A stretch of 64,000 nucleotides of DNA from Algoriphagus machipongonensis (GTDB lineage Bacteria; Bacteroidota; Bacteroidia; Cytophagales; Cyclobacteriaceae): assembly GCF_000166275.1 (NCBI RefSeq), contig NZ_CM001023.1, forward strand, positions 558,001 through 622,000, written 5' to 3'. The notes under the pieces were generated by a model that worked only from the letters and a program-made list of their open reading frames with translations, was not told where the DNA came from and made no database searches. This document shows positions 14,800 to 20,888 of this stretch, one piece after another. Position numbers and translations under genes: made by a program. How positions within the stretch are numbered: the first letter of the stretch is position 1; every line of letters begins with the position of its first letter.

Positions 14800-15834
14800 C
14801 TAATCTTTGAGTGGGATCGAGAGAGTTCCGCTACACCAGCCTGCCATTAAATCTCCGTCATATTGACCTAGATAATATAAAATTTCCCAGTCTTTCTCCG
14901 TGTCTATTTGGTAAGGGCCAAAATACTCTTGGTCTGCAATGGGAGTGGGTTCCATTCCACTATTGCCCCGAATTGTATGACGGTATAATTGTCTAAGTGG
15001 GATTCTACTTAATAGGCGATTTGCCAAAACTGTCGGACCTGTCGCTTGTGTAAAAAAATTAACTGCATACAATCTGGAGCGATAGGCCTCAGCCAATGCC
15101 GGTTTGTTGATAGCCTCAGCCTCAACAATTTTACTTTTTAACCAAACCATTCTATTTTGAAAATAGGTGTTCAGGTCATCTTGGGTTAACCCAATTTGGG
15201 CCAGACCATCTGTAGAAAGAGCAAACCGTTGATATGGAAGCCTTCTATCCAAAATCGTGTTTGGGAAAACCTCGTAGAGTTGTTTATCAGGATACTCCAT
15301 ATCCAAGGGGTCAAATCTTGATATTACTGTTTTGCTATCATCAGGAGTATTGATTGTGAAAAGGAAGGGATTGACTGTAAATCGATCTGGGTCACCATCT
15401 GAGGTTATTTGGTTTCGGCCCTCAAAAATAGGTCCTTTATAAGGGCCATTTGATTTGGGACGATTTGCAAATCGGCAAAGAGCTCCCTTCATTTTTTCAT
15501 TTAACTCGGGAACTGTCTCACCATTAATCTGTACTTCTTTTACTAATATCCCGATTCCTCTGGAGTTATAATTCGAATAGTCTGGAGAAGCTTCCCTAAT
15601 GTTTTTAATATCAAATTGGGTATTGCTTCGCAATGGATCCTTAAAGCACTCCTCTTTTGGACCATATGCTTTTTCTATGTCTTTGGCTTGTGACCAAATA
15701 GACGGATCTAGTAAAGTTTCACCGGCCACTGAATAAGTAAAGCCACTGATCCCTCTCTGTTCATTGGATGGATCAGGGTCCGTAGCCAACCTGCATTGAA
15801 AATACCCGTCAAAAATAATGTCTAGAATTGCCAT
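14800..15834 (-). CDS. Uncharacterised partner of the ferritin-like protein
   Basis: A 344-residue protein. The start at 15834 (MAILDIIFDGYFQCRL…) is chosen because it follows the upstream stop by eight bases, whereas longer starts run into the upstream gene. I recognise no catalytic motif or signal peptide. The opening 'DGYFQCRLATDPDPSNEQRGISGFT' looks like a conserved block that recurs in proteins encoded beside ferritin-like domains; that is recollection, not a search result. The N-terminus of VioB begins in a loosely similar way ('ILDF…F.G…'), so this could be the split equivalent of VioB's non-ferritin half. Five cysteines are spread through the sequence. It is probably cytoplasmic and made with the upstream ferritin-like protein. 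Confidence 0.8.
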   Translation of the reverse strand: MAILDIIFDGYFQCRLATDPDPSNEQRGISGFTYSVAGETLLDPSIWSQAKDIEKAYGPKEECFKDPLRSNTQFDIKNIREASPDYSNYNSRGIGILVKEVQINGETVPELNEKMKGALCRFANRPKSNGPYKGPIFEGRNQITSDGDPDRFTVNPFLFTINTPDDSKTVISRFDPLDMEYPDKQLYEVFPNTILDRRLPYQRFALSTDGLAQIGLTQDDLNTYFQNRMVWLKSKIVEAEAINKPALAEAYRSRLYAVNFFTQATGPTVLANRLLSRIPLRQLYRHTIRGNSGMEPTPIADQEYFGPYQIDTEKDWEILYYLGQYDGDLMAGWCSGTLSIPLKD

Positions 15835-15842
15835 AAAAAGTC

Positions 15843-17537
15843 TTAGTTGAATGTTGTGGAATAGTTTTGAAATCCTCGTGAAGAAATTGGAGCTACCATA
15901 TCTCCATTCCAATAGGCTTTAAAGTTTTTACCCATTCTTTCGAAGTTTTCTGCCAGATAACCAAAGGACACGTCAAAATCCCTTGCATCGTCTTGTAAGT
16001 AAAAAGCCATATGATATCCTCTTTCTTTACATAGGTTTTGGAGATCAATTGCTTTAGTTTTCATCGATTCAAATCTTTCTAAATAGTCCTCTAATTGATC
16101 ATAAGGAGCGATCATTTTATCTATTTCATCTTGATTGAACTGTGATACATCCAGCATAAAGTCCGGACCTGCACATCGCTCTGGAATTTTTCCACCGTCA
16201 GGAATAAAGCTTTCATCAGCAGGAAGCCTACAAATCATTTCACCTAAGGGCCTAATTACATTGGTCATGAATGGGTAAAAGGCAGTTTGGAAATAGGCAT
16301 TTACCTGTTTAGGACGAATTCCTGTAGTCTGATCAATTTCATAATGACCAAAGAAACCACTCAGCATTTTTACCATTAGGGTATAAGCTTCATTAAAGAG
16401 TTGCATCGCTAGGACAGAAACCTGATTTGAAATTTGATTGGTTGCGTTACTTGATAAGCTTGGAATGTTTTTGATCAAATGTCGATCGGCTTGAATGGAG
16501 TAAGTAGGGTTCCAAACTACCGGTAGAGCTGCATCAAAGGGTAGCCCTGAAACTTTTTCCTCTTTCTGTAAGTCGTCAAGAATGGATTGGAAAACCCAAA
16601 AGTGGCTTCCTAAGGAAGGTGGAATGCCATGAACTCCCTCGCCTTCTTCCAAAATTTGGCTGACCGCCTCTTCCACGTATTCAACAAACTGTCCAACAAT
16701 TAGTGGGTTTAATGAAATATTAAAGCCATAGTGTTCATCGACTATTCTCTCAAAATTTTCTCCTTCAATGATTTGGTATTTTAAGGCGATTACTAAATAA
16801 AGTTGGAGAAAAGTATACAACTCCTCAACGCTATTAAAATATGTGTTTTCAGTTAATGGATTGTGGATTTGGTTTAATTGGTCCTGAGATAAATTCTTCG
16901 CGAAGAAGTCTAATAGAAAATCCATTGCTTTGGATTCAGTTGCTTCTTTGTCGAAAGGCTTGGCTTTTTTATGTGGAATATTAAAAAGGCTTTTCATTTG
17001 CTCTGGAATCCCTGATGCCTCCAGTGGATCAGAAACTGGTAAGTGGTCGGGCTTTTCCCAGTATCTGAAAATCTCAATAGCGATAGGGCTAAATGGCATG
17101 AGGTTAACGGGCTTTTCCATTGGAAAGCTCGTGGCCGGAACAGGGAAATTAGGACGGAATAAATACGGGTTTTCTCCTAAAATGGCTAGCAGATTCATAT
17201 CATAACACAAATGACCCATCTCTTCTCTGGAGACCATCAGGATATTCGCCTCCCACCTTCTGATTTTTTCTACCTGAGCCATTCGGATTTGATTGATTCT
17301 TTGTTGTCCAGGATCTAAAGATCCAGGTACATAATCCGAAAACTCTTCTGGATATTTTTTTAAACTAAAGCTAGTAAACAAGTACTGCATAGCGAGTAAA
17401 TGTTCCGTGGTGCTTGCTTGCTTGAGAAGTGAGTAAATAAGGTTTATAAACTCCTTTTTCTCTGAATCATTTAAATTTTGAACCTTTTGGTCTAAATCTG
17501 GGGCAAGCTGAATTTTTCTATGATTTTTTTGTGTCAT
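15843..17537 (-). CDS. VioB-type ferritin-like domain protein
   Basis: A 564-residue protein with a ferritin-like domain of the VioB/iminophenyl-pyruvate dimer synthase type. Candidate metal ligands are E45 in 'STTEHLLAMQYLF' and the ExxH of 'SREEMGHLCYDMNLL' (E106, H109), followed by 'LGENPYLFRPNFP'. A second helical stretch at about 385-480 ('NEAYTLMVKMLSGFFG', 'YFQTAFYPFMTNVIRPLGEMICRLP', 'AGPDFMLD') also resembles the end of VioB. In violacein synthesis VioB oxidises and couples amino-acid-derived imines, but no VioA-type flavin oxidase or other pathway gene lies nearby, so the substrate is unknown. It leads a two-gene operon and diverges from the OsmC-FIST-cyclase operon, sharing a 134-base control region. 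Confidence 0.78.
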   Translation of the reverse strand: MTQKNHRKIQLAPDLDQKVQNLNDSEKKEFINLIYSLLKQASTTEHLLAMQYLFTSFSLKKYPEEFSDYVPGSLDPGQQRINQIRMAQVEKIRRWEANILMVSREEMGHLCYDMNLLAILGENPYLFRPNFPVPATSFPMEKPVNLMPFSPIAIEIFRYWEKPDHLPVSDPLEASGIPEQMKSLFNIPHKKAKPFDKEATESKAMDFLLDFFAKNLSQDQLNQIHNPLTENTYFNSVEELYTFLQLYLVIALKYQIIEGENFERIVDEHYGFNISLNPLIVGQFVEYVEEAVSQILEEGEGVHGIPPSLGSHFWVFQSILDDLQKEEKVSGLPFDAALPVVWNPTYSIQADRHLIKNIPSLSSNATNQISNQVSVLAMQLFNEAYTLMVKMLSGFFGHYEIDQTTGIRPKQVNAYFQTAFYPFMTNVIRPLGEMICRLPADESFIPDGGKIPERCAGPDFMLDVSQFNQDEIDKMIAPYDQLEDYLERFESMKTKAIDLQNLCKERGYHMAFYLQDDARDFDVSFGYLAENFERMGKNFKAYWNGDMVAPISSRGFQNYSTTFN

Positions 17538-17671
17538 ATTGAGATAAAAAATAAATAAGTGTATACAAAATAAAGATTTATAGTGACATAAATATAACCT
17601 TAAGTTTGGACTAGCACCTTTTTTTGGTATATTTCATTAGTATTTTTATCACACAAAAAAATTTTTAAAAG

Positions 17672-18238
17672 ATGCCAAACATTAAAAATGGAGTCAACCT
17701 CGATAATATTGAGGCGCTTGTTGGAGCAATCCAAAATGATCCAGAAGTTGCAAAAGTTCAGTTCAAAGCACAATCAGAATGGAAAGGTGGAACCCAAGCT
17801 TCTGTCACGGTTTCTGAATTATTTTCAAACGGAAATAATATCCGAACTGAAGCGAGTAAATTTAACTTAATAGTGGATGAGCCAGCAGTTCTTGGAGGGA
17901 AAGATGAATACCCCAATCCGGTAGAATATTTAGCTTCTGCTCTATGTGGTTGCTTGACCGCAGGAATAGCTACAAATGCTGCACTTTTTGGAACAGAGCT
18001 GGAAAAAATCAACGTGGAAGTATTGGTTAATTTTGATATCCACGGAGTTTTGGGATTAGATAGATCCAAGCCTAGTGGTCCTTTGGATTTACATTACAAG
18101 GTAACTTTAAAGGGGAAAAATGGGGCTAAAATGGAAGAACTGATCAAATCTAAAGAGACTTTGGATAAAAAGTCTCCTATAAAAAACACGATCGAACTTC
18201 CTTTAAAAGTAACCACTGAGGTAGTTATTGAGGAATAA
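17672..18238 (+). CDS. OsmC-family protein lacking the second cysteine
   Basis: A 188-residue OsmC-fold protein with an N-terminal extension of about 30 residues. The family block 'NPVEYLASALCGCLTAGIA' (82-100) carries C92 and C94, but the position usually held by the second cysteine is S168 in 'KKSPIKNTI'. A normal OsmC two-cysteine cycle is therefore unlikely; the vicinal CxC may act instead, or the protein may bind rather than reduce its ligand. It begins the operon with the FIST gene, two bases downstream, and the cyclase. It diverges from the ferritin-like gene. Confidence 0.88.
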   Translation: MPNIKNGVNLDNIEALVGAIQNDPEVAKVQFKAQSEWKGGTQASVTVSELFSNGNNIRTEASKFNLIVDEPAVLGGKDEYPNPVEYLASALCGCLTAGIATNAALFGTELEKINVEVLVNFDIHGVLGLDRSKPSGPLDLHYKVTLKGKNGAKMEELIKSKETLDKKSPIKNTIELPLKVTTEVVIEE

Positions 18239-18240
18239 TT

Positions 18241-19479
18241 ATGTCTGCAAAAGCTACTTCATTTGGTGTGGGGTTCGCCGAAACGACCGATTCCTTACTC
18301 GCAGGAGTAGAAGCTAGCAAGCAGGCATTACAGACAGCTGGACTTTTTCCTGAGGAGGTCCAGCTTTGTTTTTTATTTTGTACTTCCCGACATGAGGCAG
18401 AGCATTTTTTTGAAGGAGTAAAATCCTGTTTAGGAGAACAGACACAGTATTTTGGAGGCTTTTCCAATGGAGCATGTACTAATACCGAACTAGGATATGA
18501 CGGATATCAAGCAATCGTGGGTTTGTTAGGTAAAGGTGATTTTAAGTTTGACTTAATGATCCAAGAAGGGATAGGATTTCATGAATTTGAAACTGGAAAA
18601 TCTTTAGGGTTAAAAATTCAAGCCCAAAAGTATGATTCTGAACCACAGATGTTTTTGCTTTTTGATGCTGTAAATAGGCTGGAAGGAAGATTTAGGATGA
18701 ATTATGGCACTCCTTTTATCAAAGGCATGAGTGAATCCATTCAAAAATGGCCAAATACCATTGGAGCTAGAATGCTTGGAGATATGAAATTTAAGCCTAC
18801 TCGGCAGTGGTGTGGACAAAGCATGAGTCAAAATGCGGCTATGGCTTTGTTGATGCATGGGAATATTAAGATGGATTCTCAGATTATGCATGGCTGTCAA
18901 CCTGCAAGTGCTTACCATAAAGTAACCGCAGTAAAGGGAGCTAATATTTTGGAATTGGACCATAAACCGGCTTTAGAAGTCGTGGGGAAGATTCTGGGGC
19001 CTGATCTAATGGAGAGACCACAGGAATTAAAATTTTTTGTAACCCTCGGAAAAAACGTGGGGGATAAATGGGAAGCTTTCAATCCGGGGAATTACATCAA
19101 CAGAATGTGTGTGGGAGTGGATACTCAAGGGAAGGGGATATACATGGCGGAGATGGATATTGAGACCGGGATGGAAGTCCAATTGATGCGTAGAAGTTTT
19201 GAAATGGAATATGTTTCAGTAAGGACTAAGAAATTGATCCAACGAGTGAAATCCCAAAACCGGAGGATTATTTTTGGGTTATATATTAATTGTTCTGGTA
19301 GAGCTGCAGCCTATTCTAATCATACGGACGAAGATGTAAGGTATGTGCAAGAGGCAATAGATGGGGAGTTCCCGCTGATGGGAATTTACGAAGCAGGAGA
19401 ATTAGCAATGATTGGTGAAAAGCTTCAGGTACTGGATTGGACAGGGCTCTTTTGCATTTTTAGTGAGGAAATAAACTAA
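18241..19479 (+). CDS. FIST-domain sensory protein
   Basis: A 412-residue protein made of FIST_N (about 20-215) and FIST_C (about 220-400) with nothing else attached. FIST_N landmarks are 'LLAGVEASKQALQTAG', 'LCFLFCTSRHEAEHFFEGV' and 'YFGGFSNGACTNTELGYDG'; FIST_C ends with 'GLYINCSGRAAAYSNHTDED' and 'ALI/MGIYEAGELA', the typical 'GxxtyGEI' region. There is no signal peptide, so it is cytoplasmic. FIST is a predicted small-ligand sensor usually joined to, or encoded beside, signalling outputs. Here it sits two bases after an OsmC-like gene and 14 before an adenylate cyclase, which makes the cyclase its probable output. Confidence 0.9.
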   Translation: MSAKATSFGVGFAETTDSLLAGVEASKQALQTAGLFPEEVQLCFLFCTSRHEAEHFFEGVKSCLGEQTQYFGGFSNGACTNTELGYDGYQAIVGLLGKGDFKFDLMIQEGIGFHEFETGKSLGLKIQAQKYDSEPQMFLLFDAVNRLEGRFRMNYGTPFIKGMSESIQKWPNTIGARMLGDMKFKPTRQWCGQSMSQNAAMALLMHGNIKMDSQIMHGCQPASAYHKVTAVKGANILELDHKPALEVVGKILGPDLMERPQELKFFVTLGKNVGDKWEAFNPGNYINRMCVGVDTQGKGIYMAEMDIETGMEVQLMRRSFEMEYVSVRTKKLIQRVKSQNRRIIFGLYINCSGRAAAYSNHTDEDVRYVQEAIDGEFPLMGIYEAGELAMIGEKLQVLDWTGLFCIFSEEIN

Positions 19480-19493
19480 CCATAAGTAAAAGA

Positions 19494-20888
19494 TTGGAAG
19501 CTAAGGATAAACATATCGAAGAGCTGCAGCGGCAAGTTGACTATTACCGAAAACTCTCGGATGAAGTAGCAGGTCAAAATATCCGTAGTGACTCTCAAAT
19601 ATCCTTGTTAAAAAGAAAGCTGACTCAAAAAGAAAATGGCTTTACCATCTTGTCAGCTTTACATGATTCTTTTGGGCAGCAAATTTTTGAAGATGAGTTT
19701 TTTAATAACACCTTGATGTTGATCAATACCACCCTAAAGATGGATAAGACAGTGGTGTTGTGGAAATCCCCAAATAACTTTGATTCTTTCATCCCAAAAT
19801 TCAATATGGGCTTTAATAGAACAGAGGTTGAGAAGCTAAAGCAAATCGAAATTGATTTCCAGCAAGAGGAAGAAGTAATCCAAAGACCATTTATTAAAAA
19901 CAAAAGGTTGGTGCCCAATGAGGTGTCAAAAAAGATTAGTGCCAAAATTCAGATTCCCTATTTCATTGCTGTACCGATTCGTACCCATGGAAAAATAGTT
20001 GCTTGGATCATATCTGGAAGAGAGAAAGAGGCCTGGCCTTTTTATCCCACTTTGGACGAGGGAGATTTGGATACGATGGTGTCAATATCCGGTTTTTTGG
20101 AAGCGGGGATTTCGAATGCAAACCTTTATTATAGCTTGGAAAAAGCAAATGAAGAGTTGGAGGCATACAATCAGGAACTGGAAAAAAGGGTGGCAGAACG
20201 CACCAAAGATTTGAGGATCAAAAACCAAGAACTCACGGTAGAGAAAAAACGATCAGAAGATTTACTTCTCAACATTCTTCCTGAAGAAACAGCTGAGGAA
20301 CTAAAAAAATATGGTTTTGCCAAAGCTAAGCTCCAGGAAAATGCAACAGTCATGTTTACTGATTTCGTGAACTTTACCAAATTTTCATCTAGTATTTCCT
20401 CGGAGGAATTGGTGTCTGAGTTGGATCATTGCTTCAGGAATTTTGATGCGATTACGACCAAATATCGATTGGAAAAAATTAAAACAATAGGTGATGCCCA
20501 TATGAGTGCCTGTGGAGTTACCGGAGATGGTGGGGATGTGGCTGATGTAATTCGAGCGGGAATAGAAATGCGTGATTTTGTTCAGTCTTATGCTAAAGAA
20601 AAACCCAAACATCTCCAGGAATATTTTCAGATTAGAGTGGGTATTAATACAGGCCCTGTGGTGGCAGGTGTGGTGGGGTTAAAAAAGTTCTCATTTGATA
20701 TTTGGGGAGACACTGTCAATACTGCAGACCGGATACAATCAGGGTCAGTTGCAGGAAAAGTAAACGTTTCGGAAAGCACCTATTTGTTGACCAAAGACCT
20801 TTTTGACTTTGAAAACAGGGGCAAAATTTCTGCAAAAAACAAGGGTATGATTCCCATGTACTTTGTAGAAAATCTGAAAAAGGATTAA
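19494..20888 (+). CDS. Class III adenylate cyclase with GAF-like sensor and signalling helix
   Basis: A 464-residue cytoplasmic cyclase. Residues 1-30 form a short coiled coil, about 45-220 a GAF-like sensor, about 225-275 a signalling helix ending in 'LLLNILPEETAEELKKYG', and about 280-460 the class III catalytic domain. Metal aspartates are in 'VMFTDFVNFT' (about 285-294) and 'IKTIGDAHM' (about 330); the purine-selecting pair is K in 'EKIKTIGD' and D in 'SFDIWGDTVNTADR', which fits ATP over GTP; the N and R of 'NTADR' stabilise the transition state. No ATG is available: the frame upstream of the TTG at 19494 offers only ATA or sense codons, so TTG is taken as the start. It follows FIST by 14 bases. 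Confidence 0.9.
   Translation: MEAKDKHIEELQRQVDYYRKLSDEVAGQNIRSDSQISLLKRKLTQKENGFTILSALHDSFGQQIFEDEFFNNTLMLINTTLKMDKTVVLWKSPNNFDSFIPKFNMGFNRTEVEKLKQIEIDFQQEEEVIQRPFIKNKRLVPNEVSKKISAKIQIPYFIAVPIRTHGKIVAWIISGREKEAWPFYPTLDEGDLDTMVSISGFLEAGISNANLYYSLEKANEELEAYNQELEKRVAERTKDLRIKNQELTVEKKRSEDLLLNILPEETAEELKKYGFAKAKLQENATVMFTDFVNFTKFSSSISSEELVSELDHCFRNFDAITTKYRLEKIKTIGDAHMSACGVTGDGGDVADVIRAGIEMRDFVQSYAKEKPKHLQEYFQIRVGINTGPVVAGVVGLKKFSFDIWGDTVNTADRIQSGSVAGKVNVSESTYLLTKDLFDFENRGKISAKNKGMIPMYFVENLKKD

Follow-up and report, generated by a model that had tools for sequence, protein, structure and literature searches.

The question raised by this locus of Algoriphagus machipongonensis is how three adjacent genes, which encode an OsmC-fold protein, a stand-alone FIST protein and a class III cyclase, are connected in function. 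The genes lie in a window of 64 kb (bases 558001-622000 of the single-contig genome, 4.79 Mb). FIST was reportedly proposed as a sensory domain by Borziak and Zhulin in 2007. The sequence-only reading described the three genes as tightly packed, and their coordinates, their common plus strand and the intergenic gaps of 2 bases (OsmC-FIST) and 14 bases (FIST-cyclase) were confirmed. A triad private to the window's genome was rejected, and adjacency in this genome only, which that reading had named as its refutation, did not occur: the same OsmC-FIST-cyclase order was found in other genomes, including those of other phyla. Hence, the arrangement is more than chance. The interpretation that was considered probable, with a fair margin of doubt, is a two-protein FIST-cyclase sensor-transmitter pair within a five-gene locus, in which the N-module of the cyclase (its first ~215 residues, a long helix and a GAF-like domain) is a general receiver for FIST. 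The functional link from FIST to the cyclase is well supported by sequence comparison because adjacency is conserved, natural fusions occur and the two parts co-vary.

The gene after FIST matched residues ~8-210 of the cyclase even where its remainder was unrelated, and a profile was built from the N-module. The 79 loci compared came from named genomes and were collected with a 25-sequence FIST alignment; of 258 candidates confirmed, the best 80 supplied these loci, which are skewed towards the window FIST subtype. The N-module followed FIST or was fused to it in 78 of the 79 loci, with OsmC intervening in four of the loci and with the N-module of L027 standing after a second FIST on the opposite strand. 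FIST, N-module and output formed a single open frame in 18/79 loci, and an overlap of exactly 4 bases was seen in 23 of the 52 separate FIST/partner pairs measured. The outputs behind the N-module were diverse. Among 81 classed partners (78 loci plus the window, L003 and L004, with L084 excluded), there were 34 histidine kinases, 24 GGDEF proteins, 12 cyclases, 4 kinase-cyclases, 6 SpoIIE proteins and one cut-off partner; several kinase scores in this set were low, and the total with the kinase-cyclases matches the 35 of Pfam. The Pfam tally of 76 partners, which omits L027, L038, L084 and L091, gave HATPase_c 35, GGDEF 23, Guanylate_cyc 14 (13 by our own models), SpoIIE 6 and GAF 55, the last at an expectation value (E) of 0.01 or below.

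The FIST tree implies a minimum of 20 switches of output class. Sister pairs with values of 97-99 in the Shimodaira-Hasegawa-like approximate likelihood ratio test (SH-aLRT) carried unlike outputs, namely L023 (kinase) and L024 (cyclase), L025 (cyclase) and L035 (SpoIIE), and L032 (kinase) and L037 (GGDEF). Moreover, the pairwise identities of FIST and of the N-module were correlated (Spearman 0.83, reached by 0 of 500 permutations), and the coefficient was 0.74 for pairs of differing output only. The profiles were also run against 395 Bacteroidota genomes, where FIST matched 87 and the N-module 101, mostly weakly. The strong matches (FIST at E < 1e-100, N-module at E < 1e-20) fell in the same 4 of the 395 genomes and were adjacent every time. 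The N-module matches in the remaining 97 genomes had E values of 2.8e-9 or weaker and, apart from one in G431, did not begin before model position 33. The view of the N-module as an ordinary GAF domain found anywhere was rejected, as all 4 matches stronger than 1e-20, the only ones checked for FIST, adjoined a FIST gene.

Some loci departed from the simple arrangement. Four partners, each with the N-module in front, combined histidine kinase and class III cyclase in one protein (L022 5153-7744, L026 2870-5446, L030 2249-4837, and L027 on the minus strand), and a tandem FIST pair preceded one partner in L024 (14-4188) and L030 (7-2248). Four weak FIST matches stood side by side in each of two Bacteroidota genomes (G393:C4:176928-181532 and G512:C1:96298-100722).

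The cyclase was then considered as the output of the pair. Its catalytic domain belongs to class III by a match of 168.2 bits against a cut-off of 21.9, and the class III motif is complete (Asp290, Lys330, Asp334, Asp402, Asn409 and Arg413). By the residue roles of the family and an alignment with adenylate cyclase 9, Asp290 and Asp334 are presumably the metal residues, Lys330 and Asp402 the ATP residues, and Asn409 and Arg413 the transition-state residues. The neighbour cyclase of the window FIST probably makes cyclic AMP (cAMP), and we infer cAMP as the product in the cell. The window's genome has 9 cyclic-nucleotide-binding matches, which are possible cAMP receivers. Four more class III cyclase domains were seen in the same genome, at 471110, 531876, 1908403 and 3098971 of G000:C1. 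The predicted model of the cyclase (predicted local distance difference test, pLDDT, 88.7; predicted template modelling score, pTM, 0.53) comprised a helix at residues 2-60, an alpha/beta domain at 61-189, a second helix at 189-259 and the catalytic domain at 279-461. The window cyclase starts with TTG, and in four relatives a start codon stood at the same point or a few codons from it at most. Pfam gave no GAF match in the window cyclase itself; the GAF-like fold comes from the GAF matches among the FIST partners and from a natural fusion of a relative, in which the equivalent segment was predicted as a GAF fold. The signalling helix had a weak HNOBA match (E 2.3e-4, under the cut-off of that model). 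The earlier description of a soluble class III cyclase with a GAF-like sensor, a signalling helix and a Lys/Asp pair thus held.

Both domains of the FIST protein exceeded their curated cut-offs (71.9 against 23.2 bits and 73 against 28.5 bits). Its closest named relatives are from Algoriphagus, and of 148 genomes of the family it found 12, only three of them strong (its own included). Among 173 FIST relatives, Cys351 and Glu387 were invariant (173/173), with a spacing of 36 residues in 153. These relatives comprise 84 from the loci and 89 from a separate FIST search, with some overlap. The count of Cys among the 84 is partly predetermined, as one of the two patterns used to collect loci contains the Cys351 motif; the 89 were chosen otherwise. 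The window FIST had no sequence match to any solved structure at E 10, and the fold predicted for its relative in the fusion model is that of FBXO22. FBXO22 is reported to have an aldehyde-reactive pair, C326/E362 (PMC13316043), with a spacing equal to the usual one of Cys351 and Glu387. Given this fold and spacing, FIST could as plausibly sense a reactive carbonyl or imine as redox or nitric oxide. A FIST that senses such a molecule through the Cys/Glu pair is nevertheless considered rather unlikely. The residue equivalence is drawn from fold and spacing and not from a residue-level alignment, the loci were partly collected with the pattern holding Cys351, and no obvious ligand pocket was seen in the FBXO22 structure (PMC11185555).

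The sensing of nitric oxide was weighed on the same protein. A FIST of the NosP type would bind haem, sense nitric oxide and switch cAMP synthesis, which would make the locus a bacterial counterpart of soluble guanylate cyclase. Known NosP proteins are haem-binding FIST proteins that act on a next-door partner (PMC12570481), and the NosP model (NF041558) matched 22 of the 25 aligned FIST relatives weakly, with a best E of 2.3e-8. However, the window FIST did not match this model at E up to 10, there was no invariant His among the 173 relatives (the best was H51, in 159), and the co-inherited genes for OsmC, the ferritin-like protein and orf14800 do not point to nitric oxide. This explanation also seems fairly unlikely.

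The OsmC protein belongs to its family by a PF02566 match of 61.5 bits against 27.5. Classical OsmC/Ohr proteins have a pair of cysteines, one peroxidatic and one resolving. In the window protein Ser168 occupies the resolving position and C92-G93-C94 is present instead, so the two-Cys arrangement is absent, as had been read from the sequence (C92/C94, S168). C92, G93, C94, K167 and S168 were invariant in all 20 FIST-linked OsmC sequences aligned (window included), and the first Cys of the CGC motif was absent in all 9 readable sequences among 10 Bacteroidota OsmC proteins not beside FIST. By these residues the FIST-linked OsmC is a distinct CGC type. It adjoined FIST in 19/79 loci, a lower bound because some contigs end upstream, and usually came before FIST, lying between FIST and kinase in L042, L051, L072 and L073. 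An anti-sigma factor antagonist-like gene was noted behind the OsmC-FIST-kinase locus L072 (9468-9815). By output, OsmC was found with 7/9 cyclases, 5/6 SpoIIE proteins, 6/34 kinases, 0/24 GGDEF proteins, 0/4 kinase-cyclases and the cut-off L017. OsmC as an obligate part was rejected on these counts; it is an optional accessory of some branches.

These data bear on the earlier proposal that OsmC and FIST together pass a signal to the cyclase. Its FIST-to-cyclase half is likely, by adjacency, fusions and co-variation; a step from OsmC to FIST may exist, with OsmC as an accessory. A relay of a thiol or peroxide redox signal from OsmC to FIST and thence to the cyclase would suit the invariant CGC, the Ser at the resolving position and the gap of 2 bases, but 60/79 loci have no OsmC beside FIST, and G082 and G130, which belong to the genus of the window, have FIST and cyclase and gave no match in a genome-wide OsmC search. 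Redox is possible as the signal; the relay is distinctly unlikely.

The description of the triad as the whole unit was incomplete, since two further linked genes and the shared N-module were missed. Orf14800 and a ferritin-like gene recurred beside OsmC-FIST-cyclase in L014, L015, L016, L018 and L021; in L021 (Verrucomicrobiaceae) the genes form one co-directional run. In L017 the ferritin-like gene was present up to the contig end, and L020, also OsmC-FIST-cyclase, had neither gene in its available sequence. The ferritin-like protein matched PF12902 at 140.5 bits against 22.3; against VioB (TIGR04492) it scored 48.9 bits against 1250, with the best stretch at profile positions 608-773 of 1003, and is not a full-length member. 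Its invariant residues in 7 sequences include E45, E106, H109, E298, E300 and H312, and these Glu and His residues would suit a metal site. Orf14800 matched neither Pfam nor NCBIfam models at E 0.001, and its matches at E up to 5 were all insignificant. Its family is small and unnamed; 70 proteins were found, and the stretch R-L-A-T-D-P-D-P-S is conserved close to the start. Of these, 14 of the 70 (own included) apparently share a genome with a FIST relative, which suggests linkage and is not proof.

The CGC OsmC, the window FIST subtype, orf14800 and the ferritin-like gene stood together and collinear in 7 of the 72 genus genomes, and none of the four occurred outside these 7. The cut-offs were E < 1e-100 for the CGC OsmC and E < 1e-180 for the FIST subtype (a contig end cuts the FIST of G578), and G598, outside the 7, had a single weak ferritin-like match (E 8.8e-4). 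Of the 7, four had a confirmed cyclase behind FIST and a fifth had the start of its N-module; this check covered all but G553 and G578. L014 and G548, and likewise L015 and G336, are apparently the same genomes in both samples. Besides these, 10 genomes of the genus had a FIST of a second subtype (E about 1e-140), with none of the CGC OsmC, the ferritin-like gene or orf14800; the two subtypes occurred together in none of the 72. In the two examined of these ten, G082 (L004) and G130 (L003), a cyclase lay directly behind FIST. A set as sporadic as this (7/72) would be expected if its genes travelled together, and the cyclase has its own GAF-like domain; both would fit a co-inherited cassette without direct contact, in which the cyclase answers its own GAF domain. 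However, FIST and the N-module stay together, often as one protein, across changes of phylum, of output and of the remaining genes, and a cassette of this kind is very unlikely.

Other enzymes near FIST were also associated with OsmC. A flavoprotein family related to amine oxidases was found in 7/19 OsmC-positive and 3/60 OsmC-negative loci (with fragments in L059), and PF12902 proteins in 8/19 and 0/60. One or both were present in 13 of the 19 OsmC-positive loci, with both in L025 and L035; the counts are lower bounds, as most loci reach at most ~6 kb on each side. Flavoprotein identity was 28-39% between six members compared and 75% for L033 against L034, with many residues invariant across 10 aligned members. 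In fungi, PF12902 proteins are reported to lie close to the lodA/lodB amino-acid oxidase genes (PMC4417212). Such oxidase-like neighbours speak for the carbonyl ligand, but the search of the 72 genus genomes for the flavoprotein gave only partial matches in 6 (E 1e-10 to 4e-12) and none in the window's genome. A covalent form of carbonyl sensing can be envisaged for this FIST subfamily, in which Cys351, aided by Glu387, would trap an aldehyde or imine and the adduct would change docking on a universal helix-GAF receiver, with the CGC thiols of OsmC clearing or resetting the adduct; such a sensor is fairly improbable. Its second part, held with no more confidence, is that the aldehyde or imine would be made by neighbouring oxidation enzymes (the ferritin-like protein and orf14800 here, the flavoprotein elsewhere), with cAMP, cyclic di-GMP (c-di-GMP), phosphotransfer or phosphatase action as outputs.

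For the favoured sensor-transmitter pair, the computation shows the order and co-occurrence of the genes, the fusions, the co-variation, the predicted folds and the complete cyclase motif; we infer direct docking of FIST on the cyclase, the direction of its effect, the ligand and the roles of OsmC, the ferritin-like protein and orf14800. FIST would bind or react with a small molecule and dock on the N-module. The docked FIST may alter the signal through the 70-residue helix and thereby set cAMP synthesis in a cyclase homodimer. In evolution, this general FIST receiver would have acquired a kinase, a phosphatase, an adenylate cyclase or a diguanylate cyclase as its output end. The CGC OsmC and the ferritin-like/orf14800 pair may act on the same chemistry by making, removing or repairing the sensed species, and all three would be dispensable for signalling as such. 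Several observations weigh against this interpretation. L084 has a FIST without an N-module, as does the first FIST of L027; OsmC is absent beside FIST in 60/79 loci, some with contigs cut off, and most of the 79 have neither orf14800 nor a PF12902 gene. The co-variation of FIST and N-module could also come from common descent alone; the FIST-N-module fusions argue for contact. The natural fusion of a relative was predicted with a pLDDT of 92.1 and a pTM of 0.84; this pTM describes one fused chain whose FIST is 39% identical to that of the window, and is no interface score.

Features of the locus are listed in the table. The element upstream of OsmC, which resembles the Bacteroidetes promoter type, was conserved only in part in three relatives, and its pattern was not enriched (6 matches in the window against 8.9 expected by chance).

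Table. Features of the window and, in the last ten lines, flavoprotein genes in the coordinates of the named loci; gene starts are the first ATG, GTG or TTG of the frame
Feature	Position	Strand	Remark
orf14800	14800..15837	-	~344 residues; matches no known family; linked to triad
Ferritin-like (PF12902) protein, partial VioB match	15843..17537	-	divergent from OsmC
Promoter-like TTTG-N19-TATATTT	17605..17634	+	presumed Bacteroidetes type; weak
OsmC-fold protein, CGC type, 188 residues	17672..18238	+	PF02566
Cys92-Gly93-Cys94 codons of OsmC	17945..17953	+	invariant in FIST-linked OsmC
Stand-alone FIST sensor (putative), 412 residues	18241..19479	+	PF08495 and PF10442
FIST Cys351 codon	19291..19293	+	Cys in 173/173 relatives
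FIST Glu387 codon	19399..19401	+	Glu in 173/173 relatives
Class III adenylate cyclase (probable), 464 residues, TTG start	19494..20888	+	PF00211
N-module of cyclase (helix 2-60 and GAF-like 61-189), proposed FIST docking site	19494..20141	+	
Signalling helix of cyclase, residues 189-259	20058..20270	+	predicted model
Catalytic domain of cyclase, residues 279-461	20328..20876	+	Pfam and predicted model
Flavoprotein near FIST, L019	3459-4946		
Flavoprotein near FIST, L023	3703-5292		
Flavoprotein near FIST, L028	3724-5292		
Flavoprotein near FIST, L033	6727-8280		
Flavoprotein near FIST, L034	8951-10534		
Flavoprotein near FIST, L035	9998-11482	-	
Flavoprotein near FIST, L025	11099-12565	-	
Flavoprotein near FIST, L031	4525-5973		
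Flavoprotein near FIST, L037	4315-5970	-	
Flavoprotein near FIST, L040	1216-2634		

The locus was compared with known systems. Two reports describe the stand-alone, haem-bound FIST sensor NosP as encoded beside a kinase (PMC12570481; PMC8738867). NosP with NahK or NosK shares with the window a stand-alone FIST beside the signalling enzyme that it controls; the window output is a cyclase, however, and its FIST misses the NosP model. NosK is described without a recognised sensory domain (PMC12570481), whereas the window partner has the shared helix-GAF N-module. In Vibrio cholerae, the FIST gene vpsV lies upstream of that of the cytoplasmic kinase VpsS, and VpsV was proposed as its sensing partner (PMC4398556). 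The FIST gene is likewise ahead of its partner, but VpsV-VpsS is a kinase system in quorum sensing. Fusions of FIST-FIST_C to GGDEF, EAL or HD-GYP, reported in a review (PMC8846402), also couple a FIST sensor to messenger enzymes, with c-di-GMP and one chain there against cAMP and two chains in the window. The FIST domain of FBXO22 is part of a eukaryotic ubiquitin ligase and shares no sequence score with the window FIST. Soluble guanylate cyclase and other class III cyclases have the same succession of sensor, helix and catalytic domain, but in the window the sensor is FIST on a separate chain and the Lys/Asp pair is that expected for ATP. In literature coverage that left out most subscription journals, nothing was found on a FIST-cyclase-OsmC unit, the N-module, a cyclase output or the five-gene locus. 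A separate FIST protein beside its output, there a kinase, is already known from NosP and VpsV. What seems new is the cAMP output, the N-module shared by the partners and the locus of five genes.

In this locus the readout is a soluble cyclase, the partner module is defined, the Cys/Glu pair is invariant, and the co-inherited genes possibly point to the ligand. If the proposed pair is true, a single combination of sensor and receiver would explain how the same signal is wired to cAMP, c-di-GMP, kinases and phosphatases.

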